This document shows, piece by piece, positions 8,173 to 23,661 of a stretch of 26,121 nucleotides of DNA. A program made the position numbers and the translations under genes. The stretch lies in assembly GCA_001789205.1 (NCBI GenBank), contig MFYT01000098.1, positions 1 through 26,121 of the forward strand, written 5' to 3'. How positions within the stretch are numbered: the stretch's first letter is position 1; each line of letters opens with the position of its first letter. This stretch comes from Candidatus Raymondbacteria bacterium RIFOXYA2_FULL_49_16. Lineage in GTDB: Bacteria > Fibrobacterota > OXYB2-FULL-49-7 > XYB2-FULL-49-35. The notes beneath the pieces were generated by a model, which did not search any database, was not told where the DNA came from, and saw only the letters and a list, made by a program, of their open reading frames with translations.

Positions 8173-8613
8173 TTAGAGGGCAATTTTTAGGTCCGTCTCG
8201 GCCATCCAATGTCCGTGGACCGTGCAGTTCTCGACAATGGTAAGCGTCACGCCTTGTGTTTTTAAATGAAAACAGGCGGCAGGGTTCACGCGCGGCGACA
8301 GCATTACGCGGGCAATGTATCTTTTATCGACATAACAATCCATGAAGCTGATGAAATGTTTTTCCTCCATTGGATGCAGGACTTTGCCGATCCGCACTGT
8401 TGCGTCCATGCACGGCGTCTCGGGGACCAATCCGCAGGTTGTTTTAACCGTTATAACCGGGATGTGTTTTGCCGGCGCTTCCGGGCTTTTTTTCTCCGCC
8501 TCCTCGAAAATGGAGTCTTTCTGGTCAAACGTCTGCGATCCGCACACAGGGCATTTCTGCGGCTGGGTTATAAAGGCGATATAACTGCATATTTTGCATT
8601 CAAAGAGATTCAT
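8173..8613 (-). CDS. Superoxide reductase (desulfoferrodoxin family) with rubredoxin-like N-domain
   Basis: The 146-residue protein reduces superoxide to hydrogen peroxide without releasing oxygen, a defence typical of anaerobes. Residues 6-24 form a CxxC...CxxC metal knuckle (C6, C9, C21, C24), closer to rubredoxin than to the CxxC...CC of classical desulforedoxin. The C-terminal domain keeps all five ligands expected of the catalytic Fe(His)4Cys centre: H50 (AKHIPV), H80 (LHPMEEKH), H86, C130 and H133 (ENCTVHGHW). The start at 8613 is preferred over upstream in-frame starts because AAAGGG lies 8 bases before it. A sigma54-type promoter match ends about 60 bases upstream. The gene heads the minus-strand run leading to the GT, GH57 and GGDEF genes. 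Confidence 0.9.
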   Translation of the reverse strand: MNLFECKICSYIAFITQPQKCPVCGSQTFDQKDSIFEEAEKKSPEAPAKHIPVITVKTTCGLVPETPCMDATVRIGKVLHPMEEKHFISFMDCYVDKRYIARVMLSPRVNPAACFHLKTQGVTLTIVENCTVHGHWMAETDLKIAL

Positions 8614-8672: not shown

Positions 8673-8688
8673 TGCAAAAACACTGCCA
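8673..8688 (-). promoter_or_regulatory. Candidate sigma54 promoter of the superoxide reductase gene
   Basis: On the minus strand the site reads TGGCAGTGTTTTTGCA. The TGGCA and TTGCA core elements are exact and the spacing is correct (GG to GC 12 bases); only the two degenerate positions after TGGCA differ. Predicted start is near 8662, giving a 49-base leader to ATG 8613. The -24 end touches the inverted repeat at 8688-8722. Confidence 0.65.
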
Positions 8689-8722
8689 TTTATTCGCAAA
8701 CGGCAATAGTTTGCCAATAAAT
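8688..8722. promoter_or_regulatory. Inverted repeat, 14-bp arms (13 of 14 paired)
   Basis: Arms ATTTATTCGCAAAC (8688-8701) and GTTTGCCAATAAAT (8709-8722) flank a 7-base spacer. There is no T tract, so it is not a standard terminator. It abuts the -24 element of the superoxide reductase promoter and lies about 160-195 bases before the enzyme I promoter. A regulator binding site is the best guess. The 349-base gap 8614-8962 otherwise holds two sigma54 promoters and a 17-bp palindrome, and no convincing gene. Confidence 0.5.
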
Positions 8723-8767
8723 GAAATAGCGGGAGCGCAGGAATGTATCTGAACCATTCATATGCGG

Positions 8768-8784
8768 CCGAATCTCAGATTCGG
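8768..8784. promoter_or_regulatory. Perfect 17-bp palindrome between divergent sigma54 promoters
   Basis: CCGAATCT-C-AGATTCGG is a perfect 8-1-8 palindrome. It lies 79 bases from the -24 element of the superoxide reductase promoter and 98 bases from that of the enzyme I/Kor operon. That is the usual distance for an upstream activator site of a sigma54 enhancer-binding protein. A related sequence (15 of 17 bases over AATCTCAGATTCGGAAA) occurs at 15776-15792, upstream of the receiver-gene promoter. Confidence 0.6.
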
Positions 8785-8882
8785 AAATTTTATTCACGAT
8801 ATCGGCAATGACCGTACTACTATTATCCCATGAACAAGGCTGATCTAAAAGGGTTAGCGGGGCTAAACGCATATGCCGGCTA

Positions 8883-8898
8883 TGGCATGGTCATTGCT
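8883..8898 (+). promoter_or_regulatory. Sigma54 promoter of the enzyme I / Kor operon
   Basis: TGGCATGGTCATTGCT matches TGGCAYRNNNNTTGCW at every defined position. Predicted start is near 8909, giving a leader of about 54 bases to ATG 8963. It is the best match in the window and very unlikely by chance at this location. Confidence 0.8.
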
Positions 8899-8962: not shown

Positions 8963-9796
8963 ATGAAAAAACAACAAACATATGCCAGGGAATTGATCCT
9001 GTATGGCATGCCTGTTTCCAAAGGCATTGCCGAAGGCGTGGCCCGGGTCGTGTACATTGAAGCAGAGGACTTTGAACTGCGGCCTGTTCTCAGACGCGAT
9101 CAAATCGCAGAAGAGATTGCACGCATCAAAAAGGCCTGTCAACTGCTCCTGGTGGTCATCGAACATTCTGAAATGTTTCTGCATGATCACACCCCGCATC
9201 GTCATCTGAACCTCTTTGCCATGCACAAGATACTATTGGAAGACAAGGCGTTCAGGGACCGGATGATTAATATTGTTACTGAAATGAAATCTTCCGCTGA
9301 AACAGCAGTCCTCCAGGTCATTGACGAGTACAAGCGCCGGTTGGCCGAAAGCCGGAGCCAGTTTGTCCTGGAAAAGCTCTCCGATCTTCTTGATCTGCGT
9401 CTTGGACTCATCGACGCGTTAAAAAGGCCCCATATTTTTATTGAAGACCGCGAATTTGTCGGTACGAAATTAGGCAGCCCGAAAAGGATCGCGGTCACCA
9501 AAGAACTCACGCCGCGGTTTGTCATTGAACAGCACAAGGAAAATGTGCAGGGGATTTTGTCCGAGGTGGGAGGCAAAGGTTCGCATGCCGCGATCCTGTG
9601 CCGGGCATTGGAAATACCTGTTGTCAGCGCGCTGGAAGACATCTGCGATCTGGTTGTGGACGGGGACACGGTATGTGTGGACGGCGCCAAGGGAAGCGTG
9701 CGGATATTAAAGGCGCGGCGCGGGGTACGCGCCAGCACGGTGAAAGGGAAAGTAGAGACGACACCACGAAAGGCGCTACCCCATGCGGCAGCCTGA
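8963..9796 (+). CDS. ptsI: PTS enzyme I, N-terminal half (HPr-binding and phospho-His domains)
   Basis: The 277-residue product matches the N-terminal half of PEP:protein phosphotransferase. It has the opening GMPVSKGIAEG (15-25), a helical HPr-binding domain (about 45-155: LLEDKAF, SAETAVLQVIDEY, LIDAL) and the swivelling phosphohistidine domain with GGKGSHAAILCRALEIPVV (203-221; H208 is the phosphate acceptor). The frame ends at TGA 9794-9796, in the linker just before the PEP-binding barrel. The barrel continues in the +1 frame from ATG 9783, so the two ORFs overlap by 14 bases. Enzyme I is normally one protein of about 570 residues, the sum of these two. A run of four C at 9779-9782 precedes the second ATG, and loss of one C would fuse the frames. 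The Shine-Dalgarno for ATG 8963 is weak. No HPr or EII gene is nearby. Confidence 0.88.
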   Translation: MKKQQTYARELILYGMPVSKGIAEGVARVVYIEAEDFELRPVLRRDQIAEEIARIKKACQLLLVVIEHSEMFLHDHTPHRHLNLFAMHKILLEDKAFRDRMINIVTEMKSSAETAVLQVIDEYKRRLAESRSQFVLEKLSDLLDLRLGLIDALKRPHIFIEDREFVGTKLGSPKRIAVTKELTPRFVIEQHKENVQGILSEVGGKGSHAAILCRALEIPVVSALEDICDLVVDGDTVCVDGAKGSVRILKARRGVRASTVKGKVETTPRKALPHAAA

Positions 9797-10622
9797 CGGG
9801 CCACTCAGACTCATGGCAAACATCAGTTTTGCAAAGGACGTTCTGCCTGCGCTGAACGCTGGGGCGGAAGGCGTGGGTTTGTACCGGACCGAATTTGAGT
9901 TCATGGTCGCGGGCCGCCTGCTCGATGAAACAGAACAATATCTTCTCTATAAAACAGTGGTGGAGGCGCTTGCGGGCAAGCCCGCCTATATTCGCCTGCT
10001 CGACATTCACAAGGAAAAGAACTTCCCGGCCTTCATGACAAGCTATGGCGCGCGGCCTTTTCCCGCCCCCTATGGCGCCCGTTTTTTGTTGGGTCACCCG
10101 GAAATATTGGCCACACAGGCGCGCGCCCTGGCCCGTGCCTCACAGCACGGCGCCATTAATGTTGTTTATCCTTTTGTCTCAGACGTTAAACAATTCCTCG
10201 CATTAAAGGAACTATTCGTCACTTCGGTCTTGGGCGTATCCTCTGGTGACATTCGGCATGGGGCGATGTTCGAACTGCCGTCAATCTGCCTTGAATCGCG
10301 CCGCGTTTTTAAACACTCTGATTTCGGCGCTATTGGGACAAACGACTTGGTCCGTTATTTATTCGGCCTGGACCAGAACAACGACAGCAAACTGGCGCGG
10401 AAGGTCTCCCATCATCCGATATTGCGTTCGCTCATCAAAAAGGTCGCTGCAACAGCCTTCAAGGCAGACCGGCCCCTGTTGTTCTGCGGGGAATTGGCCA
10501 AGGACCCGAAGAACCTCAACTGGTTGCTGCAGGCAGGCATACGCATTATCAGCATGCCGCCCGAGGCGATTCCCCTTGTACGGCAAATGATCCAGAAACA
10601 GTCCGACAGCAACATACCTTAA
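9783..10622 (+). CDS. ptsI: PTS enzyme I, C-terminal half (PEP-binding TIM barrel)
   Basis: The 279-residue product is the PEP-binding and dimerisation barrel of enzyme I. It keeps the expected active-site segments: ANISFAKDV then GAEGVGLYRTEFEFM (PEP-binding Arg), RLLDI, FELPS (metal Glu), GAIGTNDLVRYLFGLDQNN (metal Asp) and LLFCGELAKDP (catalytic Cys). It begins at the hinge, right where the phospho-His half stops. The ATG is inside the end of the previous frame, with AAAGG 9 bases before it, so it could be translated independently by coupling. The alternatives are a disabling frameshift or a one-base indel in the C4 run. All catalytic motifs look intact, which argues against an old pseudogene. 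The KorA gene follows after 16 bases. Confidence 0.85.
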   Translation: MRQPDGPLRLMANISFAKDVLPALNAGAEGVGLYRTEFEFMVAGRLLDETEQYLLYKTVVEALAGKPAYIRLLDIHKEKNFPAFMTSYGARPFPAPYGARFLLGHPEILATQARALARASQHGAINVVYPFVSDVKQFLALKELFVTSVLGVSSGDIRHGAMFELPSICLESRRVFKHSDFGAIGTNDLVRYLFGLDQNNDSKLARKVSHHPILRSLIKKVAATAFKADRPLLFCGELAKDPKNLNWLLQAGIRIISMPPEAIPLVRQMIQKQSDSNIP

Positions 10623-10638: not shown

Positions 10639-12354
10639 GTGCGAAATGAGATTACCATAAGGATCACCGGCCAGGCCGGTCAGGGCATGCAGACCATTGG
10701 AAATGCAATGGTGCGAATGTTCAAACAGGCGGGATTGCATGTGTTTTCCAACCAGGATTATATGTCAAGAATACGGGGCGGGAACAACTATTTTCAGATA
10801 CGAGTATCAACGCAACCGGTTTTCGCCCTTCGCCAGCAGTGCGATATCATAGTTGTTTTAGACAAAACAGGCGTTCCAATACACCAGGACAGCCTTTCGG
10901 AGCATGGCGTTCTGATAGTTGACAAGGAACAGTTCGGGATATCCGATCCTGCCCGGATTTTTTACGATATTCGAATGGCCGCCCTGACCAAAGACCTGGG
11001 CGGGAACGGCCATTCCGTGAATTCAATTGCATCGGGCGCTCTGGCGGCCCTGACCGGCGTATCTTTTTCCATAGTCGCGTCGGTGATGAACACCGTGTTT
11101 GCCGCAAAAGGGGAGGAGACCCTCGATGCGAATGTGCGCATGGCAAAGGCCGGTTATGATGCCGCGCGCCAGGACCTCCGGGACAATGCATTCATGCTTC
11201 CGCAGGACGTTGATCCGGGCGGGTTGCTGATGAATGCCAACGAAGCGATCGGCTTGGCCGCCATCTGCGCTGGCTGCAAATTTTACTCAGCGTATCCCAT
11301 GACCCCCTCCACCGAGATCATGGAAACCATAGCCCGCTATGCCGGCATATTCAATATCATGGTTGAACAGGCCGAGGACGAGATTGCGGCCATTAACATG
11401 GTCGTAGGCGCCTCGTTTGCCGGGGTACGCGCCATGACCGCAAGCTCAGGCGGAGGGTTTGCGCTTATGACCGAGGGTTTAAGCCTTGCAGGGATGACCG
11501 AGACACCGGTTGTGGTTGTTGATGGCCAGCGGCCAGCGCCCGCCACGGGCCTTCCCACGCGCACCGAACAGGCCGACCTTGATCTGCTTATCAACGCGGG
11601 ACACGGGGAATTCGCGCGCGTTGTCTATAGCCCGGGCACGGTTGAGGAGGCGTTTTCCCTGACCATCGACGCGTTTAATCTTGCTGAGAAATATCAGATA
11701 CCGGTCCTCATCCTCACCGACCAGCACCTTGCGGATTCTGTCAGGAACATCAAACCACTGAGTCTTTCGCATCCGGTGGTCATTCGGCATATTATTCCCA
11801 AGGAGCAGTCGGAGGGGGTTGTTGAGTACAAACGGTACGCCTTTACCGAGGAAGGGATTTCACCCCGGGCAGTGCCCTCGTGGATACCCGGCGTTGTCTA
11901 TTCAGACAGTGACGAGCACACCGAGGAGGGCCATATTACCGAGGATCCGGTAATCCGAAGGCGCATGGTAGAAAAACGGCTGTACAGAAAAATGGAACTG
12001 TTGCAGGACGACATCAAGGAACCCCTTGCCTGCAACATGGAAGGTGCGGAAACAGTCCTTGTCGGGTTTGGTTCCACCTGCGGTGTTGTCCGGGAAGCGA
12101 CCCAGGTCCTTAAAGGGCGGAACATTGGGTGCATCCACCTTTCCCAGGTATGGCCTTTCCCGGCCCAAGCCATGAAAAGACTGCTCAAAAGCGCCAAAAA
12201 AATATTGACCATTGAGAATAATGCTGGTGCGCAACTCGCTGGTCTGCTCCGCAGGCAAACAGGAATTGCCGTCCATGGGTCTATCCTGAAATTTGACGGC
12301 AGGCCCTTTGACCTCGATTATCTGCTGGATAAATTAACGGGTGAGGCGCACTGA
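10639..12354 (+). CDS. korA: 2-oxoacid:ferredoxin oxidoreductase, fused gamma-alpha subunit
   Basis: The 571-residue protein combines two parts. Residues 1 to about 185 are the gamma domain (ITGQAGQGMQTIGNAM, then DYMSRIRGGNNYFQIR). The remainder is the pyrimidine-binding alpha domain, beginning FYSAYPMTPSTEIMETIA, with EQAEDEIAAINMVVGASFAGVRAMTASSGGG typical of KorA. With KorB it oxidatively decarboxylates a 2-oxoacid (2-oxoglutarate, pyruvate or similar) to an acyl-CoA and reduces ferredoxin, or runs in reverse for CO2 fixation. The substrate is not decided by sequence. The start is GTG 10639, with AAGGCGG 8-10 bases upstream; this start aligns with the family N-terminus. It is co-directional with and 16 bases after the enzyme I C-half, and its TGA shares one base with the korB ATG. 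Confidence 0.92.
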   Translation: MRNEITIRITGQAGQGMQTIGNAMVRMFKQAGLHVFSNQDYMSRIRGGNNYFQIRVSTQPVFALRQQCDIIVVLDKTGVPIHQDSLSEHGVLIVDKEQFGISDPARIFYDIRMAALTKDLGGNGHSVNSIASGALAALTGVSFSIVASVMNTVFAAKGEETLDANVRMAKAGYDAARQDLRDNAFMLPQDVDPGGLLMNANEAIGLAAICAGCKFYSAYPMTPSTEIMETIARYAGIFNIMVEQAEDEIAAINMVVGASFAGVRAMTASSGGGFALMTEGLSLAGMTETPVVVVDGQRPAPATGLPTRTEQADLDLLINAGHGEFARVVYSPGTVEEAFSLTIDAFNLAEKYQIPVLILTDQHLADSVRNIKPLSLSHPVVIRHIIPKEQSEGVVEYKRYAFTEEGISPRAVPSWIPGVVYSDSDEHTEEGHITEDPVIRRRMVEKRLYRKMELLQDDIKEPLACNMEGAETVLVGFGSTCGVVREATQVLKGRNIGCIHLSQVWPFPAQAMKRLLKSAKKILTIENNAGAQLAGLLRRQTGIAVHGSILKFDGRPFDLDYLLDKLTGEAH

Positions 12355-13211
12355 TGAATGCCGATGCGTTTACTAGCGCGGACCCTGTTGCATGGTGCCC
12401 TGGTTGCGGTAATTTCGGCATTCTAAATGCCATGAAAAAGGCGTTGACCGGGCTTGGCCGCCTGCCAAAGGACATTGTGCTTGTGTCCGGGATCGGACAG
12501 GCAGCCAAGCTTCCCCATTATGTGCATTGCAATTGCTTCAACGGACTGCATGGACGGGCGTTGCCCGCAGCCACAGGCATAAAAATCGCCAATACGAATC
12601 TCACGGTCATTGTCACAACAGGAGACGGGGATTGCTATGGAGAAGGGGGCAACCACCTCATCCATGCCATCAGAAGAAACATCGACATCACTGTTGTTGT
12701 CCACGATAATCAGATATACGGCCTTACCAAGGGCCAGGCTTCACCGACAACGGAGAAAGGCCAGATCACTAAAACGCAGCGGAACGGCGTTATTACCGAG
12801 CCGTTGCATCCCATGGAGATGGCTATTGCGCTGGGCTGCGGTTTTGTAGCGCGCGGTTTCTCAAAGGAGTTGGACCATTTGTCATGGTTAATCAGCGAAG
12901 GCGTCCGGCACAGAGGATTTTCACTTATCGATGCGCTTCAGCCGTGTGTAACGTTCAACAAACACAACACCTATGAATGGTATTCAGAACGCGTATACAA
13001 GCTCGGAGAGCAGGTTCCCTACGACCCGTCGATAAAGGCGGCCGCATATGAAAAAGCGTCTGAATGGGAAAACAAAATTCCGATAGGCATCATCTACCGG
13101 AAAGAAGCCCCCAGTTATGACCAGATGACCGGTCTGGATAAAATGCCACCGCTTGTTGAACATGATGTCGAAAGGACCAGGATTGATGAGATCTTGGATG
13201 ATTTTAAGTAA
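12354..13211 (+). CDS. korB: 2-oxoacid:ferredoxin oxidoreductase, beta subunit (ThDP-binding)
   Basis: The 285-residue protein has WCPGCGNFG at 14-22 (two Cys ligands of a [4Fe-4S] cluster), C59 or C61 (HYVHCNCF), and C198 (LQPCVTFN) as probable further ligands. The ThDP/Mg motif runs from GDGDCYGEGGNH (90-101) to HDNQIYGLTKGQASPT (117-132). SGIGQAAK (45-52) replaces the SGIGCSS of other subfamilies, so one cluster Cys is displaced to the HCNC segment. It forms the catalytic complex with KorA, with which it overlaps by one base (TGATG). Its stop overlaps by 8 bases with the end of the convergent gene at 13204. Confidence 0.93.
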   Translation: MNADAFTSADPVAWCPGCGNFGILNAMKKALTGLGRLPKDIVLVSGIGQAAKLPHYVHCNCFNGLHGRALPAATGIKIANTNLTVIVTTGDGDCYGEGGNHLIHAIRRNIDITVVVHDNQIYGLTKGQASPTTEKGQITKTQRNGVITEPLHPMEMAIALGCGFVARGFSKELDHLSWLISEGVRHRGFSLIDALQPCVTFNKHNTYEWYSERVYKLGEQVPYDPSIKAAAYEKASEWENKIPIGIIYRKEAPSYDQMTGLDKMPPLVEHDVERTRIDEILDDFK

Positions 13212-13683
13212 GAGAGGCTTCCAGACGCATCTCCAAGCAGTCTTTATTTATACTGGAACGCGTCAGTATTTCAGGGTTTTCCAGCGCATCAATAAGCATT
13301 TCCATAAGGGTGGTAATGTCCGACGCTCTGTACCGTAAGTACGGGCTGCTCGATATTCTCATCCGGTAACGATAGACTTCCAAAACCGCATGGACCGCGG
13401 ATTCAGCCGAACAGTTTTGTTGTTTTATCTGGGCCGATAATTGATGGCCAAGGACCGGATCTTCCAGATACTGGCGCAGAATAGCGAATGTTTTAGCACG
13501 TTCATTTTTGGACTGATCGAGGAAATCCTCCGAATATTGGCATATGACCCGCAGTTTTTGAATTGAGTGTTTTAAGCGGATTATTTCCTCAAGGAGCTGC
13601 GGCCCAGGCATGTGTTCCTGGCGCCTTGAAGCAGGATAATCACTGATATCTGGTTCGCGCTCGCATATTGCCTGTGGTGTCAT
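13204..13683 (-). CDS. Stand-alone helical protein homologous to the HPr-binding domain of enzyme I
   Basis: The 159-residue product resembles only the helical HPr-binding subdomain of enzyme I. EEIIRLKHSIQKL...SEDFL (32-55), YLEDPVLGHQL (72-82), SAESAVHAVLEVYRYRMRIS (92-111) and LMEMLIDALENPEI (126-139) align segment by segment with residues 50-158 of the nearby enzyme I N-half (EEIARIKKAC, LLEDKAF, SAETAVLQVIDEY, LIDALKRP). There is no GGxxSHAA phosphohistidine motif and no barrel, so it cannot be phosphorylated in the usual way. A role as an HPr-binding competitor or partner of the split enzyme I is inference. GAGGGGGG precedes ATG 13683, and a sigma54-type site lies just upstream. It converges on korB. 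Confidence 0.75.
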   Translation of the reverse strand: MTPQAICEREPDISDYPASRRQEHMPGPQLLEEIIRLKHSIQKLRVICQYSEDFLDQSKNERAKTFAILRQYLEDPVLGHQLSAQIKQQNCSAESAVHAVLEVYRYRMRISSSPYLRYRASDITTLMEMLIDALENPEILTRSSINKDCLEMRLEASLT

Positions 13684-13860: not shown

Positions 13861-15183
13861 TTAAGCGTGAATTTTTGTTTTGCTCAGCTTTCTGTAGAGG
13901 GAGGCCCGGGAAATCCCCAATACTCTGCTTGCAGTTTTGGTATCGCCGTTGCATTCGGAGAGGGTTTTCTGCAAGTGCATGTTTTCCACGTCTTCGAGCG
14001 TGCCAGTGGCTGATGGCGGCAATGGCGCTTTTCTGGATGTCTCGAGCCCGGGGAAATGGGCGCATCGCAGGGTTTCGCCCTGAGACAATATGACCGCACG
14101 CTCCAGCATGTTTCTCAGTTCCCGCACATTGCCCGGCCAATGATACTTTTTCAAAAGCAGCACAACATCTTCCGCAATATCCGGGATGACGGAGCACATG
14201 CCGTCGAGAAGACCATGGATAAGACCGGGAAGGTCTTCGTACCGGTCTTGCAAGGCGGGCATATCGATCGGGAAGACGCAGATGCGGTAATACAGGTCGG
14301 TACGGAACCGGCCTTCCTCAACTTCGAGGGAAAGATCGTGGTTTGTGGCGCAGATCAGGCGGAAATCGCTGGTCCGTTCACGGGTCTCGCCCAGGCGTCG
14401 GTAGGTTTTTTCCTCGATGGCCTTGAGAAATTGTGATTGGATGGAGACATCCATGTCGCCGATCTCATCGAGGAAGAGCGTGCCGCCATTTGCCACCTCG
14501 ATAAGCCCCTGCCGGTCCTGGACCGCGGAAGTAAACGCGCCCTTGACGTGGCCAAAGAGCTCGCTGCCAAGCAGTTCGCCGCGCAGGCTTGCGCAATTGA
14601 CCTCAACGAACGGTTCTGAAGCGCGGGGGCCTCGTTCGTGGATCCAGCGTGCAAGCACTCCTTTTCCCGTGCCTGTCTCGCCTTGCACAAGGACCACGGA
14701 ATTGTTGTCCGCTGCCAGGGAGGCGTGTTCAAAGATGGTTTTCATGGCAGGGCTAGTGCCAAAGTATGGATCTCTTTTTTTAGCGGTCCTTCGCTGGGCC
14801 TCGTCTTTTTGCCGCAGGTGCCGCAGTTCAATATTTTTAGATAGATAGGCGTTCAACGCTTCCAGATTGACCGGTTTTGTGAGGTAATGGTCTGCACCAC
14901 GCCGCATGGCTTCAACAGCGGAGTTTATCTCGTTGTCGCCGGTGATGATGACAATGGTGGTGTCAGGGTTTTTCTTTTTTATTTTGGGGATCCAGTCGAG
15001 GCCATTGCCGTCGGGCAGCGTAAGATCGAGTAAAATGATGTCGAGGTTCCGGGAGAGCAGTATGGTGTCGGCCTCCTGAAGGGTGGATGCGGTCTGGACG
15101 CTAAGGCCCATGTTTGAAAGATATCTTGAAAAACCGAAAACAGTCGCGGAATCATCGTCCACGATAAGCAAGGATACGGTCAT
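13861..15183 (-). CDS. NtrC-family sigma54-dependent response regulator
   Basis: The 440-residue protein has three parts. The receiver domain (1-120) has acidic pocket D10/D11, phospho-acceptor D53 in ILLDLTLPDGNG, T81 and K103. The AAA+ domain has GETGTGKG at 168-175 as Walker A and GGTLFLDE at 233-240 as Walker B. The Fis-type helix-turn-helix lies at about 400-437 (TKTASRVLGISRASLYRKL). The sigma54-contact loop reads GAFTSA (215-220) in place of the usual GAFTGA. It should activate sigma54 promoters after phosphorylation, and the several such promoters in this window are candidate targets. It is 93 bases downstream of the single-domain receiver and in the same orientation as the histidine kinase. 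The Shine-Dalgarno is weak. Confidence 0.93.
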   Translation of the reverse strand: MTVSLLIVDDDSATVFGFSRYLSNMGLSVQTASTLQEADTILLSRNLDIILLDLTLPDGNGLDWIPKIKKKNPDTTIVIITGDNEINSAVEAMRRGADHYLTKPVNLEALNAYLSKNIELRHLRQKDEAQRRTAKKRDPYFGTSPAMKTIFEHASLAADNNSVVLVQGETGTGKGVLARWIHERGPRASEPFVEVNCASLRGELLGSELFGHVKGAFTSAVQDRQGLIEVANGGTLFLDEIGDMDVSIQSQFLKAIEEKTYRRLGETRERTSDFRLICATNHDLSLEVEEGRFRTDLYYRICVFPIDMPALQDRYEDLPGLIHGLLDGMCSVIPDIAEDVVLLLKKYHWPGNVRELRNMLERAVILSQGETLRCAHFPGLETSRKAPLPPSATGTLEDVENMHLQKTLSECNGDTKTASRVLGISRASLYRKLSKTKIHA

Positions 15184-15276: not shown

Positions 15277-15648
15277 TTATGAAGCGTTCAGTAATTCTTT
15301 TATTTTTGCCGGCGAAACCGGTTTCTCAAGAAAATGGTCCACATTAAGGCCGGCCGCGCTCCCGTTGGGGCCACCGTCCTCGTACGCGGTTATAACTATT
15401 ATCATGCTGCCTTTCTGGAACTCTTTAGCTAGTTTTATGACGTTGTACCCTTCGACCAATGCAGTGTTTGACAGGCGGAGATCTGTGATGATCGCGTCAT
15501 ATTTATTTTCGGTTATAAGGAGATGCGCTTCAGGAAGCGACTGTGCGGTATCAACAAGCATGGTCCCGGATTGAAGCAGTTTTTTCAGGCCGAATAACAG
15601 GGCTTCCTCATCTTCAACAATTAAAATTTTCTTTATTTTTTCATTCAT
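15277..15648 (-). CDS. Single-domain response regulator (receiver)
   Basis: The 123-residue protein is one CheY-like receiver with E12/D13 in VEDEEAL, phospho-acceptor D56 (IITDLRLS), T87 (VITAYED) and K109 (FLEKPVSP), and no output domain. It probably passes phosphate between the kinase and other partners or acts by protein contact. ATG 15648 is chosen because it begins right at the domain and a sigma54 promoter predicts transcription from near 15680. That rules out the longer in-frame start at 15753. It lies between the histidine kinase and the NtrC-family gene. Confidence 0.88.
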   Translation of the reverse strand: MNEKIKKILIVEDEEALLFGLKKLLQSGTMLVDTAQSLPEAHLLITENKYDAIITDLRLSNTALVEGYNVIKLAKEFQKGSMIIVITAYEDGGPNGSAAGLNVDHFLEKPVSPAKIKELLNAS

Positions 15649-15690: not shown

Positions 15691-15706
15691 AGCAACTATC
15701 GCGCCA
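15691..15706 (-). promoter_or_regulatory. Sigma54 promoter of the receiver gene
   Basis: The minus strand reads TGGCGCGATAGTTGCT: GG and TTGCT exact, one change (A to G) in TGGCA, correct spacing. It is 15 of 16 bases identical to the site before the DUF2934 operon at 20937. Predicted start near 15680 gives a 32-base leader to ATG 15648. Confidence 0.7.
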
Positions 15707-15775: not shown

Positions 15776-15815
15776 TATTCTCATATTCGGAAACTGAATT
15801 TTGATAATTGAGAAT
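15776..15815. promoter_or_regulatory. Possible activator site upstream of receiver promoter
   Basis: ATTCTCATATTCGGAAA (15776-15792) matches 15 of 17 bases of the palindrome region at 8771-8787. It also forms a spaced inverted repeat, ATTCTCA (15777-15783) with TGAGAAT (15809-15815). It lies 70-110 bases upstream of the sigma54 promoter at 15691-15706, a suitable place for an enhancer-binding protein. Confidence 0.45.
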
Positions 15816-15874: not shown

Positions 15875-18109
15875 TCATGTTTCAAACTTGAAATAGATGG
15901 TTGCGCCCTTGTCTTTTTCCCCTGTGGCCCAGATAGTCCCATTGTGTTTGCTTATGATCCGTTCCGCAAGGGCAAGACCCAGGCCCAAGCCCCGGAATTC
16001 CTGCTGAGAATGCAGGCGCTCGAAGGGTTTAAAAAGCCTGTCAACATCTTTCATGTCAAACCCCGCGCCATTGTCCCGGATAAAATAGGTTTTTTCGCCG
16101 TTTTTGACCTCTTCACCGAATTCGATACGCGAAAGCATGACATGGGAAGAGTATTTCCAGGCGTTTCGGACTAGGTTCTCTATCAATATCTGCATGAGTC
16201 CTGCGTCTGCGTTTACCATGACGCCGGGTTGGATGACAGCTTCAATATTTCTTTCAGGGTTGGCTGACTGCAATACTCCGAGGAAGGTCTGGACAAGGTT
16301 GCTCAGGTCAACTGGTTTGCGCTCGATTTTTTTCCGGGAAAGGCCGGAGAGTGTCAGAAGATTGTTGATTACTTCAACCATGCGGTTGGCGGACTGGACA
16401 ATATACCCCATGGCCGTTTTGGAATCGGCCCCCATGGCGTTCCGGTTTTCCATTGCCAATATTTCGATGTTTGTCAAAATGGCGTTGAGAGGGTTTCGCA
16501 GGTCGTGCGACACAGAATAGGAAAAGGCCTTCAGATCGTGGTTTGCGTAGGATAATTCCCTGGCCCGGTGTTCAAGAGAAACGTTGAGTGAACGCAGCGC
16601 CTCCTCCGCCTGTTTGTTGTTGGCAATTCTCCAGGCCGCATCCATGAGCAGCGTGAGCTGGGTCGCATCCGTGGAGTCGTACTCATTCTCCTTGTTGGCC
16701 ACTCCCACTACGCCAACAATGGTGTCTTCAATAAAAACCGGGATGGTCAGGAGCCGGTGCAGTGGCGAGTTGTCAAAAGGCATGCCTTGTTTCAATGGAT
16801 TTGGCGCCTGGAAGTTGTTTATTATTATCGCTCTTCTTTGCCGCACTGCCTCGCCCCATATGCCGGTTTTATCGAGCTGATAGACGGTTTGCTGGTCTGC
16901 AATGGAACACTCTTTCATCACCTCTTTTGACTGAGAAATAAGGGTACATTCCTTTGTTTCTTCGTTGTAGGAGTGCACATACCCGATTTTGCTGGCCGTA
17001 AGGGTGATTGCTTCGCTCAAAGCAAAATCAAGCAGTTCGTAGATGGTGACCGCCCGATGCTGGGTCAGGTTTAGCAGACTGACGAGTCTCAGGTCGTTTT
17101 GTTTTATCTTTTCTTCGGCTTCCCTGCGCTCCAGTTCGCCAGCCGCACGCATAGAGACCAGCTTAAGTATCACTTCAGAGAGTGCAGGATTTACCAGGGG
17201 CTTTCGGCTGATGAGCGCGATAAGACCGATCGGGTTACCGTTAAATCCCCACAATGTGGCCCCCATATAGCCTTCGGCCCGCAGGTCCAAAAGCGCCTTG
17301 TCGTTTGGAAACAGATGGCACACCTTTTCCGGGAAAGAGCAGATTATTTTTCCCATAACAGCGCCGCACGGGGTATCTTTAAGAGCATACAATACATTGG
17401 TGTCAAATTTCCCATCGTTAAATATTGCCACTGTCTCCGCGTGGAGTTTATCTCCCGAAAGCCTGTCAATGCAGACATAATCCATTTCCAGGTTTTGGGC
17501 AAGGTATTGGGCCAGCAATTGAAAGAAATCCCCGCTGGACCCCGGATATCCGCATTGGACAAGGAATGTCTGGGTGGTTTCCAATTGCTTGCGCACGGAA
17601 ATATCGCTTATGGTGATACGGCACACGGTTTGGCCGTCTTGGGCAAACGCAACAGTAGCTTGCAGGGAAACCCAGAAGGGAGTGGCGCCTTTTATCATTC
17701 TCAGCTCAAACGCCTGGGGCGTGCCGGATTTGATAAGGGTGTTGCGGCGCAGATAAAACAAGTCCTGGTCTTCCCGGAAAATATAATGGGAGAGGGGTTG
17801 CGTAATTAAACCGCTCCGGTCCATGCCCAGCATGTTGGCCGCGGTCAGGTTTGTTTCGAGGACCAGACCGCCTTGGTTTACGGTGAAGTAGCCCACAGGC
17901 GCCATGTCGTAGAGGTCAAAATACCTGGTGCGCGACTCCTCCAGGTCCAACTGTGTTCGGCGAAGCTCATCGTTCTGCATTTCCAGTTCTATCTGGTGCA
18001 CCTGCAGTTCGTGGAGCTGCTCCCTGGCCTGTTCGGGGGTTAGGGTCGCTGGATCAATTGGCCGCTTGAACAGCTGTTCTTCGGCTTTTTGGCGTAGGAT
18101 ATTATCCAT
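15875..18109 (-). CDS. PAS/GAF sensor histidine kinase (cytoplasmic)
   Basis: The 744-residue kinase has no membrane segment. It opens with a coiled region (LTPEQAREQLHELQVHQIELEMQ), then a PAS domain (about 55-175), a first GAF-like domain (about 185-325) and a second GAF (about 365-505). The HisKA helix carries SYSVSHDLRNPLNAI, whose His is the phosphorylation site. The ATPase domain has ENLVRNAWKYS (N box), DNGAGFD (G1) and GLGLGLALAERI (G2). ATG 18109 lies 7 bases after the stop of the CheB-CheR gene; an in-frame TTG at 18145 would overlap that gene instead. Tight spacing with CheB-CheR and the two response regulators downstream points to one signalling pathway. The signal is unknown. Confidence 0.9.
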   Translation of the reverse strand: MDNILRQKAEEQLFKRPIDPATLTPEQAREQLHELQVHQIELEMQNDELRRTQLDLEESRTRYFDLYDMAPVGYFTVNQGGLVLETNLTAANMLGMDRSGLITQPLSHYIFREDQDLFYLRRNTLIKSGTPQAFELRMIKGATPFWVSLQATVAFAQDGQTVCRITISDISVRKQLETTQTFLVQCGYPGSSGDFFQLLAQYLAQNLEMDYVCIDRLSGDKLHAETVAIFNDGKFDTNVLYALKDTPCGAVMGKIICSFPEKVCHLFPNDKALLDLRAEGYMGATLWGFNGNPIGLIALISRKPLVNPALSEVILKLVSMRAAGELERREAEEKIKQNDLRLVSLLNLTQHRAVTIYELLDFALSEAITLTASKIGYVHSYNEETKECTLISQSKEVMKECSIADQQTVYQLDKTGIWGEAVRQRRAIIINNFQAPNPLKQGMPFDNSPLHRLLTIPVFIEDTIVGVVGVANKENEYDSTDATQLTLLMDAAWRIANNKQAEEALRSLNVSLEHRARELSYANHDLKAFSYSVSHDLRNPLNAILTNIEILAMENRNAMGADSKTAMGYIVQSANRMVEVINNLLTLSGLSRKKIERKPVDLSNLVQTFLGVLQSANPERNIEAVIQPGVMVNADAGLMQILIENLVRNAWKYSSHVMLSRIEFGEEVKNGEKTYFIRDNGAGFDMKDVDRLFKPFERLHSQQEFRGLGLGLALAERIISKHNGTIWATGEKDKGATIYFKFET

Positions 18110-18116
18110 TATATGA

Positions 18117-20726
18117 TCATTTTTTCCGTTCAATAATTTTAACAAAGGTGATCACCACGCCCTCGATGACGTTTTCCAGGGTCCGGTAGGGCTGAATGCG
18201 CATCTGATACCATTGGCCCTCTTTTGTCAGCACTTCAGCTTCCTTGGGAACAAGTGTGTCCAGCACGGCCCGTGCATCCTGCACCAGGGAATCGTATCCA
18301 TCGAGACGGGAGACAATGTCGCTTATGGGCCGGCCGATGTCGGTCTGGATGAGGTTGATTATATGCGTTGTGGCCGGGGTGAAGCGCTGGATGCGTAGAT
18401 TGAGGTCTACAAAGAGGGTGCCGATATTGGTACCGGCCATGAGGTTGTTCATGTCGTTGTTTGAGCGCGACAGCTCCTCTATTTTTTTCTGGAGTTCATT
18501 GTTTACGGTGATCAGCTCTTCGTTGACCGACTGCAATTCTTCCTTTGAGGTTTCCATTTCCTCGTTTGTTGATTGCAGTTCTTCGTTCGAGGATTGCAGT
18601 TCCTCGTTGGTCGATTTAAGCTCTTCGTTGGCGGTTTCAAGTTCCTCAATGGTGGCCTGCAGGTACTCTCCTTTGGCCTGGACTTCCAGTTCCAGGGCAA
18701 CAAGGCGCTGGTTCTGGCCGCTTTTTTTAGCCGCCTTTAGCATGGTCCGGCCAGCCTCTTTTGCAGCTGGTTTCGCTGTTTCCTCGAAAATGACCATGAG
18801 CATGCCCTGAGAGCCTTTGGGCCCGATCACGGGCTTGACCACAAGGTTTATCAACGAGGTTTTTCCATTGGTCGCGATCCGTATGTTGTTGTGACGCGCT
18901 GGTGTGCGGCTGGAAAGGGCTTTTCGCGTTGCCGCAGCCAGTTCAGCACGCAGACCGGGTCGCGCCAATTTGAGCAGGTTCAGAGTGGCTTCGCCAGTGG
19001 CTGGCTCCAGATATTCGCCCGTATGGCCGTGGATAAACAGTACGTCCAAATTCATGTTGACAAGAACACTTGCTGGCACATATGTGTCCAGCATGGTTTG
19101 TTCAGCCAGCTGGCGATGGGTTGCGGGCTGCACCGGAATGGCTATTGGGGAGGTCTTTCCGTTTCTTGTTTCCATGCCCGGGGGCGGCAAGATGGGGATG
19201 GTTGCCGGACGGTACAGTGTGATGGTTTTGCGCGCGAATATCTTCCATTTTTTGTCCACGCTCGCGAACATGGTGGTTAATTCGCCCACGCTTTCCGAAT
19301 TCCCGAGGAAAAGATGGCCATCGGGGTTGAGGGCATAGTGGAAGAGAGGGAGCAGTTTTTTTTGGGCCTCAACGTCGAAGTAGATGAGGAGGTTGCGGCA
19401 GCTGATGAGGTCGACCTTTGAAAAGGGCGGGTCTTTGAGCACGTCCTGTTTGGCAAATACCACCAGATCGCGGATCCTTTTTCCAATGCGGTACGACGTA
19501 TTGGTACGGGTAAAGAAACGGGCGATTCGTTCCGGGGAAACATCCGCGGCAATGCTGTCGGAAAAAACGCCTGCCCGCGCTTTTTCAATGGCTTCGGCGT
19601 CGATGTCTGTGGCAAAAATCTGCGCTGGAAAATTCTGTTTTGAATTGTCCAGGTGTTCCCTGATGAGCATGGCAATGGAATAGGCTTCTTCACCCGTGGA
19701 GCAGCCAGGCACCCAGATGCGCACGCCGCCGGCCGCGGGTTTTTTCAACAGGCCCTGGATGACATTTTTTCTGAGCGACTCGAACGCTTCGGGGTCGCGG
19801 AAAAAGCTGGTGACCCCGATCAGGAGCTCTCGGAAGAGGATGTCGACCTCGGCCTTGTTTTCGCGCAGGAAACGGATGTAATCCTCGGGCCGGGAAATCT
19901 GGGTAACGGCCATGCGGCGTTCTATGCGCCGGTTGATTGTGTTGCGTTTGTAGAGTGAAAAGTCGTGGCCGGTTTGGTCGCGCAGCATTAAAAAGACCTT
20001 GTGGAGTACGTCCGAGCTGTCTGGAGATTGGGCCCGGAGTCCGGGAGCGTGGCGGTTGAACGTTCGCTGACCATAGAGTATAAGCTGTTCCGGCATCTTT
20101 TCCGGGGGCAGTACGTAGTCTGCCAAGCCCGTGGCAATGGCGTTGCGGGGCATGCCGTCGTAGGCCGCGGATTCAGGGGTCTGGACCATGGCCATACCGC
20201 CTTCGCCCTTGATTGCCTTTAGACCTGCTGATCCGTCGGTCCCTGTACCTGAAAGGACAACGCAGATTGCGCGTTCGCGCTGGTCTTGCGCCAGGGAGCG
20301 GAAGAAAAAGTCAATGGGAAGGCGCAAACCGTGCGGCGTTTCGGGCTCGAGCAGGTGGAGTTTGCCCGTATGAAACGCCATGTCCTGGTTTGGGGGGATA
20401 ATATACACGCAATTGGGCCGGACCTCCATCGCGTCTTCAACAATGGTCACGGGCATTGTGGTATATTTTTTAACCAGGTCGACAAGAATGCTTTTATGAT
20501 CAGGGTCGAGATGTTGCACCACAACAAAGGCCATGTCCATTGGTGCGCCTTGGGGAATGGCGGAAAAAAAAGACTCAATCGCGGCAAGACCCCCGGCAGA
20601 GGCGCCTATGCCCACAATGGGAAAACCCGTATTCGCCTGTTTTGTCTTTGACCCGGGTTCTGGTATGCCCGGCTTTACGATTTTTTCTGATCTGACAGGG
20701 GGGAAGCGCTGTTTCTTTTTTTTCAT
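18117..20726 (-). CDS. CheB-CheR-PAS fusion protein
   Basis: The 869-residue protein joins a CheB-type methylesterase with Ser-His-Asp residues S43 (GIGASAGG), H72 (VVVQHLDPDH) and D164 (SGTGTDGS) to a CheR-type methyltransferase containing VWVPGCSTGEEAYSIAML and ISCRNLLIYFD. A long coiled coil of seven-residue repeats follows (TNEELQSSNEELQSTNEE and related) and then a C-terminal PAS domain. There is no receiver domain on CheB. No chemoreceptor, CheA or CheW gene is nearby, so a role in kinase signalling rather than chemotaxis is likely (inference). The histidine kinase gene starts 7 bases after its stop. The Shine-Dalgarno is poor. Confidence 0.92.
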   Translation of the reverse strand: MKKKKQRFPPVRSEKIVKPGIPEPGSKTKQANTGFPIVGIGASAGGLAAIESFFSAIPQGAPMDMAFVVVQHLDPDHKSILVDLVKKYTTMPVTIVEDAMEVRPNCVYIIPPNQDMAFHTGKLHLLEPETPHGLRLPIDFFFRSLAQDQRERAICVVLSGTGTDGSAGLKAIKGEGGMAMVQTPESAAYDGMPRNAIATGLADYVLPPEKMPEQLILYGQRTFNRHAPGLRAQSPDSSDVLHKVFLMLRDQTGHDFSLYKRNTINRRIERRMAVTQISRPEDYIRFLRENKAEVDILFRELLIGVTSFFRDPEAFESLRKNVIQGLLKKPAAGGVRIWVPGCSTGEEAYSIAMLIREHLDNSKQNFPAQIFATDIDAEAIEKARAGVFSDSIAADVSPERIARFFTRTNTSYRIGKRIRDLVVFAKQDVLKDPPFSKVDLISCRNLLIYFDVEAQKKLLPLFHYALNPDGHLFLGNSESVGELTTMFASVDKKWKIFARKTITLYRPATIPILPPPGMETRNGKTSPIAIPVQPATHRQLAEQTMLDTYVPASVLVNMNLDVLFIHGHTGEYLEPATGEATLNLLKLARPGLRAELAAATRKALSSRTPARHNNIRIATNGKTSLINLVVKPVIGPKGSQGMLMVIFEETAKPAAKEAGRTMLKAAKKSGQNQRLVALELEVQAKGEYLQATIEELETANEELKSTNEELQSSNEELQSTNEEMETSKEELQSVNEELITVNNELQKKIEELSRSNNDMNNLMAGTNIGTLFVDLNLRIQRFTPATTHIINLIQTDIGRPISDIVSRLDGYDSLVQDARAVLDTLVPKEAEVLTKEGQWYQMRIQPYRTLENVIEGVVITFVKIIERKK

Positions 20727-20936: not shown

Positions 20937-20952
20937 TGGCGCAATAGTTGCT
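20937..20952 (+). promoter_or_regulatory. Sigma54 promoter of the DUF2934 operon
   Basis: TGGCGCAATAGTTGCT has GG, the degenerate CA and TTGCT correct with exact spacing; only the A of TGGCA is changed. It differs by one base from the receiver-gene promoter at 15691. Predicted start near 20963, 28 bases before ATG 20991, which carries AGGAG at 6 bases. Confidence 0.75.
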
Positions 20953-23534: not shown

Positions 23535-23550
23535 AGCAATAACCATACCA
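23535..23550 (-). promoter_or_regulatory. Sigma54 promoter of the T9SS-sorted protein gene
   Basis: The minus strand reads TGGTATGGTTATTGCT, one defined base away from TGGCAYRNNNNTTGCW and very similar to the enzyme I promoter at 8883. Predicted start near 23524 gives a 55-base leader to ATG 23469. Confidence 0.65.
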
Positions 23551-23661
23551 TATATTATAACCGCAATATTTATCTGCCCCGGTTTCAAAAAAACGGAAAC
23601 GGATTCTTGAAAATGATAATCTGGCAATTAGGGTTGAAAAACGCTGTTGATTCACGATTAT

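Follow-up and report, generated by a model that had tools for sequence, protein, structure and literature searches.

The 349-bp intergenic region between a superoxide reductase (SOR) gene and an enzyme I (EI)-like gene is probably a shared control region, in which the NtrC-type response regulator encoded at 13861-15183 would act on two dyads to drive two divergent sigma54 promoters. One of these promoters is predicted to read into the SOR gene, and the other into an operon coding for the EI-like protein and a KorAB-like 2-oxoacid:ferredoxin oxidoreductase. Comparison between genomes demonstrated the operator motif, its spacing, the predicted promoters, their conservation at SOR genes, and the linkage to regulator orthologues. 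The genes concerned are located in the window (the whole 26,121-nucleotide stretch of DNA that was analysed) as follows.

8173..8613, minus strand: superoxide reductase (desulfoferrodoxin) with a rubredoxin-like N terminus (Pfam PF01880)
8963..9796, plus strand: EI-like N-terminal and phosphohistidine domains (domain search)
9783..10622, plus strand: EI-like PEP-binding domain (domain search); in homologues, one ORF with the N-terminal part
10639..12354, plus strand: 2-oxoacid:ferredoxin oxidoreductase alpha subunit, KorA-like (domain search)
12354..13211, plus strand: 2-oxoacid:ferredoxin oxidoreductase beta subunit, KorB-like (domain search)
13861..15183, minus strand: NtrC-type response regulator, the proposed activator (Pfam domains, GAFTSA loop, orthologues and their neighbourhoods)
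15277..15648, minus strand: small receiver protein encoded by the leading gene of the regulator operon, with a re-assigned start

A sensor histidine kinase and a CheB/CheR-type protein, whose domains were read from the sequence, are encoded directly upstream of the regulator operon on the same strand (15875-20726). The EI-like protein is split into two ORFs with a 14-base overlap (9783-9796), whereas each homologue in the phylum is encoded by one ORF of about 550-580 aa; the gene may be truly split, or a frameshift or assembly error may account for the overlap. In addition, a free-standing EI N-terminal-like domain with 34% identity to the EI-like protein is located directly downstream of the NtrC-type regulator (13204-13683, minus strand).

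Predicted sigma54 promoters

The first-pass annotation had proposed divergent sigma54 promoters in this region, and both sites were recovered exactly where it had placed them.

8673..8688, minus strand: predicted sigma54 promoter of the SOR gene, TGGCAGTGTTTTTGCA; exact core, with sigma54-like sites at the SOR genes of relatives
8883..8898, plus strand: predicted sigma54 promoter of the EI/KorAB operon, TGGCATGGTCATTGCT; core matched exactly; the double dyad is 92 bp away

The two sites, each with a TGG-N10-TGC core, face apart with a separation of 210 bp and are the sole matches to TGGCA-N6-TTGCW in the 26-kb window, where 0.24 would be expected; two or more matches were obtained in 1 of 100 shuffles. 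They are located about 59 bp (minus site) and 64 bp (plus site) from the respective start codons, and the corresponding distance for the intergenic sigma54 sites of the genome is mostly 34-114 bp. In the whole genome, the pattern occurred 49 times, compared with 10 times for a reversed control pattern. About 16 of the sites outside the window are intergenic and precede genes such as those for flagellin and hook protein (names read from the sequence), so this genome does have genuine sigma54 promoters. It also encodes RpoN and 27 strong sigma54 activators.

Judged by composition alone, other sigma54 sites of the genome are more typical than the two in the window. A position-by-position comparison gave an equivocal picture for both promoters. 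Position 6 of the minus site is G, while C or T was present in 16 of 16 other intergenic sites, a rule based on sites picked by eye as intergenic. In the plus site, position 6 is T, not C, and the flanks are GC-rich, which is atypical for the genome, and resemble chance matches in coding sequence. The consensus, the position, and the shared operator argue for a promoter at the plus site. A scan of the intergenic region for sigma70-type promoters gave 2 matches against 1.3 expected, Rfam gave no match, and the other sequence of the region had no convincing repeat elsewhere in the genome. Between the glycogen genes and the SOR gene, no sigma54 site scoring 13 or more was found.

Tandem dyads as the predicted operator

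A palindromic motif was fitted to the sequence between both promoters of 11 divergent sigma54 pairs, that of the window included, and its log-likelihood was 55.6, compared with 24-31 for shuffles. When refitted without the window, the motif was TTCNCR-N4-YGNGAA, occurring as two dyads 21 bp apart. Of the spacings from 10 to 60, 21 bp came out best in other genomes. In a scan of the 26-kb window with the motif trained without it, the matches at 15778, 8772, 15799, and 8793 ranked 1, 2, 4, and 6, and these four matches form two pairs with 21-bp spacing each. The pair scores of 27.3 (15778) and 22.6 (8772) were higher than those of all 300 shuffled windows (maximum 21.1). The predicted sites, including two weaker double dyads, are the following.

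8772..8787: predicted activator dyad 1, ATCTCAGATTCGGAAA
8793..8808: predicted activator dyad 2, TTCACGATATCGGCAA; centre 21 bp from dyad 1
15691..15706, minus strand: sigma54-like site of the regulator operon, TGGCGCGATAGTTGCT
15778..15814: double dyad of the regulator operon, TTCTCATATTCGGAAA / TTTTGATAATTGAGAA
20870..20906: weaker double dyad, score 16.5
20937-20952, plus strand: sigma54-like site before a DUF2934 protein; spacing to the 20870 dyads shorter than usual
23535-23550, minus strand: sigma54-like site before a secreted protein, beside the 23584 double dyad
23584..23619: weaker double dyad, score 19.3, spacing 20

The double dyad at 8772-8808 is located about 102 bp from the -24 element of the minus site (8673) and 92 bp from that of the plus site (8883). 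Both these distances and the 21-bp spacing agree with the description of paired upstream activator sites, which are about two helical turns apart and 50-200 bp from the -24 element. The 15778 double dyad is located 90 bp from a sigma54-like site reading into the receiver/NtrC-regulator operon, implying autoregulation.

One central activator site for both promoters had already been postulated, and this idea was supported by a double dyad that was identified with a window-free motif, has 21-bp spacing, and recurs in relatives. The element originally chosen as this site was a palindrome.

8768..8784: perfect palindrome of the first-pass annotation, CCGAATCTCAGATTCGG; exact; overlaps dyad 1 off-centre; probably incidental

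The palindrome itself is real, with 8-bp arms and no mismatch, but taken alone it is weak (p of about 0.02 with a spacer of at most 1, and about 0.075 with a spacer of at most 10). Its motif score was -16 to -36, compared with +11.5 at 8772, and its centre is 3.5 bp off the centre of dyad 1, i.e., off the conserved symmetry axis, suggesting that its perfection is probably incidental. It is unique in the genome within 2 mismatches, which ruled it out as a repeated operator. The two dyads in tandem, rather than this palindrome, are the predicted operator.

A further inverted repeat in the region had been missed.

8687..8723: inverted repeat CATTTATTCGCAAAC-N7-GTTTGCCAATAAATG, abutting or touching the -24 element of the SOR promoter

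Its 15-bp arms (8687-8701 and 8709-8723) contain one mismatch and were equalled in 0 of 1000 shuffles, and by chance tests it is far stronger than the palindrome. It was ruled out as a conserved operator by the lack of a counterpart at the SOR genes of relatives, and may be a lineage-specific repressor site.

Conservation at SOR genes of relatives

Conservation was assessed at the phylum level, the nearest comparison genomes sharing the phylum and not the class; a GTDB genome search with the EI-like protein returned no close relative. Named Chitinispirillaceae bins were present among the Kor homologues, and one of them (L143) has the same SOR upstream sequence as genome G044, which suggests that this branch belongs to Fibrobacterota. 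SOR orthologues with 38-57% identity were found in nine relatives of the phylum. Upstream of five of the nine, a sigma54 site scoring at least 14 (of 15) is located on the same strand within 250 bp, compared with about 0.25 expected by arithmetic from the density elsewhere in the loci. Without any prior motif, the most widely shared 9-mer of the window's SOR upstream sequence was GTTTTTGCA, the -12 element, which was found within one mismatch in all nine relatives, compared with 4-7 in shuffled sets. The conservation of this element supports the minus-strand promoter. For the palindrome, no matching conserved site was found at SOR in the relatives.

In six of the nine relatives (G028, G044, G052, G006, G065, and G056), a double dyad followed by a sigma54-like site was present at SOR (scores 13-15). 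Only G006 belonged to the motif training set, and the other five loci are independent. No double dyad with a promoter was detected at SOR in G032, G020, and G050. The combination of a double dyad and a sigma54 site was frequent near the regulator and SOR, and was absent from 727 kb of Kor loci, mostly of other phyla, from 101 kb of EI loci in other genomes of the phylum, and from a control set of 400 kb of the own genome. A strict double-dyad pattern was enriched in many regulator-bearing genomes (14 vs. 2 in the own genome, 24 vs. 1 in G032, and 17 vs. 2 in G006). Few or no strict double dyads were present in G010, G038, G026, and G024 despite the regulator, and the single match in G010 adjoins its regulator gene.

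The NtrC-type regulator and its orthologues

The NtrC-type protein at 13861-15183 had been suggested as the activator, and the double dyad at its own operon and those beside its orthologues are consistent with this assignment. The protein contains a receiver domain (PF00072), a sigma54-interaction AAA+ domain (PF00158), and a Fis-type HTH (PF02954). Its loop is GAFTSA rather than GAFTGA; FTSA/FTSS loops recur in the orthologues, and for Desulfovibrio vulgaris, loop variants of a similar kind are regarded as active (PMC4641369). The orthologues (44-55%) form a group apart from other receiver-bearing activators (at most 41% over full length), and the recognition-helix core GIS..SLYRKL is common to most of them. 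Across 471 kb of their neighbourhoods, 66 good sigma54 sites were found; among them are 11 divergent pairs, 9 of which are separated by 164-299 bp. Among the examined neighbourhoods of the genome's sigma54 activators, a double dyad scoring at least 20 was found only at the proposed regulator. This lack of strong double dyads near the other activator genes examined, together with the linkage of double dyads to the orthologues, favours the 13861-15183 protein as the probable activator.

Several orthologues are located near SOR, EI, or Kor genes. EI or Kor genes adjoin regulator orthologues in G032, G052, and G028, and adjoin SOR in G044. Along with the shared double dyad, these neighbourhoods support the earlier proposal that SOR and the EI/Kor operon are co-targets. 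KorAB is located 2.4 kb from a regulator orthologue in G028 (L315, G028:C381, 326-6598) and within 3.2 kb of SOR in G044 (L240, G044:C70, 3837-9963), so linkage of Kor, SOR, and the regulator extends to more than one family. Among Kor homologues of other phyla, EI/Kor/SOR adjacency was not conserved.

Other arrangements were also observed. A different sigma54 activator (about 37-43% identical) adjoins an EI gene in many genomes of the phylum (L251, L252, L256, L257, L259, L260, L261, L264, and L265) and also in the own genome (contig C1, 17888-21765). Near a regulator orthologue in G056, there are two divergent sigma54 pairs (L320, 13705-13758 and 14597-14651), each only 38-39 bp apart and thus too close for a central shared operator. 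G036 carries a tandem array with a 21-bp period, TTCTCGGTTTTATGAAGGCTT (L335, G036:C2:32211-32436), in which each unit resembles one activator dyad; it may be an operator array or a coding repeat.

Proposed mechanism and alternative explanations

From these results we infer binding by the 13861-15183 protein, its phosphorylation, DNA looping, and an inducing signal. The regulator, presumably phosphorylated, would bind the dyads at 8772-8787 and 8793-8808, two helical turns apart on one DNA face, and would assemble its AAA+ ring (hexamer) on them. The DNA would loop, and the GAFTSA loop could contact sigma54 RNA polymerase at either flanking promoter (8673, minus; 8883, plus), by which SOR and the EI/KorAB operon would be switched on together. 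At the regulator's own operon, the double dyad and sigma54 promoter would lead to positive autoregulation, and the regulon would reach other oxygen and stress genes. Oxygen sensitivity is typical of KorAB-class enzymes, and SOR eliminates superoxide without producing oxygen. Thus, by inducing both together, an anaerobe exposed to air could protect its ferredoxin-linked metabolism or replace it.

The dyads and promoters might be real and be served by another of the genome's 27 strong sigma54 activators, whose recognition helices are alike within the class; the scarcity of strict double dyads in some of the genomes that carry an orthologue of the proposed regulator would fit this. It is nevertheless unlikely, given the double dyad at the proposed regulator's own operon and beside its orthologues, and the lack of any scoring 20 or more in the examined neighbourhoods of the remaining activators. 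There is also a small chance that the regulon takes in the SOR promoter alone, the plus site at 8883 being a chance match and EI/KorAB using a different promoter. Such a view has to account for an exact core that lies 92 bp from the dyads and 64 bp from the start codon, for divergent pairs with one shared double dyad that recur in relatives and in the own genome, and for the EI/Kor genes beside regulator orthologues (G032, G052, and G028) and SOR (G044). It does agree with the flanks of the site, which are like those of chance matches in coding sequence, and with the Kor/EI arrangement beside SOR, which is not conserved in other phyla.

It is very unlikely that another regulator uses the palindrome at 8768-8784 as its operator, with the overlapping dyad being secondary: the palindrome is unique in the genome within 2 mismatches, has no matching conserved site at the SOR genes of relatives, and disagrees with the conserved motif in its axis, even though its 8-bp arms are perfect (p of about 0.02). 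Single sigma54 matches are common inside coding sequence, and everything observed could in principle be a coincidence of common short motifs, but this is scarcely credible and is contradicted by the blind motif test, the shuffles, and the orthologous, independent SOR promoters. A shared control region under the NtrC-type regulator is the explanation that we prefer.

The predicted regulon

Further predicted members of the regulon of this NtrC-type regulator in the own genome come from a sample of the genome, and the list is a lower bound. They include at least a BON-domain-like protein, an MlaE-like permease, a large glucan-synthase-like ORF, and a secreted protein on contigs C103 and C26 (names read from the sequence), and two of these members have one double dyad between divergent promoters. 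In relatives, the predicted targets include ferritin, a rubrerythrin-like protein, Usp, BON, PRC-barrel, FKBP, and isochorismatase proteins, with ferritin divergent from SOR in G006; an HtrA-like protease and small receivers were added by eye. A link between oxidative stress and carbon metabolism had been suggested for this locus. SOR and EI/Kor as co-targets agree with it, but the physiology is wider, extending to ferritin, Usp, BON, and other proteins. The regulon looks like an oxygen and general stress regulon, for which "oxidative stress" appears too narrow.

Tentatively, the general oxygen/stress response in the Chitinispirillaceae-like branch may be run by sigma54 and one autoregulated NtrC-type regulator, instead of by a dedicated stress sigma factor. 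Its targets would be SOR, ferritin, rubrerythrin-like protein, Usp, BON, HtrA-like protease, and FKBP, and in this organism it would also couple 2-oxoacid:ferredoxin oxidoreductase to superoxide removal. An activator, an operator code, and a conserved regulon were thus defined from sequence alone in a little-studied lineage, which makes testable how strict anaerobes couple oxygen defence to ferredoxin-dependent carbon metabolism. The motif can also be used to annotate stress genes in related metagenome genomes.

Comparison with known systems

NtrC-type activators use tandem upstream sites made up of two dyads on one helix face, about 100 bp from the -24 element, and likewise here. However, the dyad sequence is different, and the sites would be used symmetrically by two divergent promoters. 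In other anaerobes, PerR/Fur control superoxide reductase, a repressor acting with the housekeeping sigma factor. The defence enzyme is the same and the control is likewise oxygen-related, whereas an activator and sigma54 are predicted here. No report of sigma54 control of superoxide reductase was found in the open literature, of which coverage was incomplete. Desulfovibrio vulgaris has divergent sigma54 operons, such as those of DVU2106, where similarly two operons that flank the activator's own gene were assigned to one sigma54 activator; that activator is a single-component protein, however, and cell-division genes are controlled (PMC4641369). The word superoxide is absent from this D. vulgaris sigma54 regulome paper.

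According to the available part of its description, the nearest described regulon is NmpRSTU of Myxococcus xanthus, which also combines an NtrC-like response regulator, sigma54 promoters, and a palindromic operator with an oxygen-related regulon containing a universal stress protein and further operons (PMC11841059). Its operator in that account is GCGCA-N5-TGCGC, which differs from TTCNCR-N4-YGNGAA, and the targets mentioned there include a high-affinity oxidase and not superoxide reductase. Sigma54 activators, paired operators, and divergent promoters sharing operators are therefore already known kinds, while the predicted operator code, the target set including superoxide reductase, and the conservation in this lineage are new.
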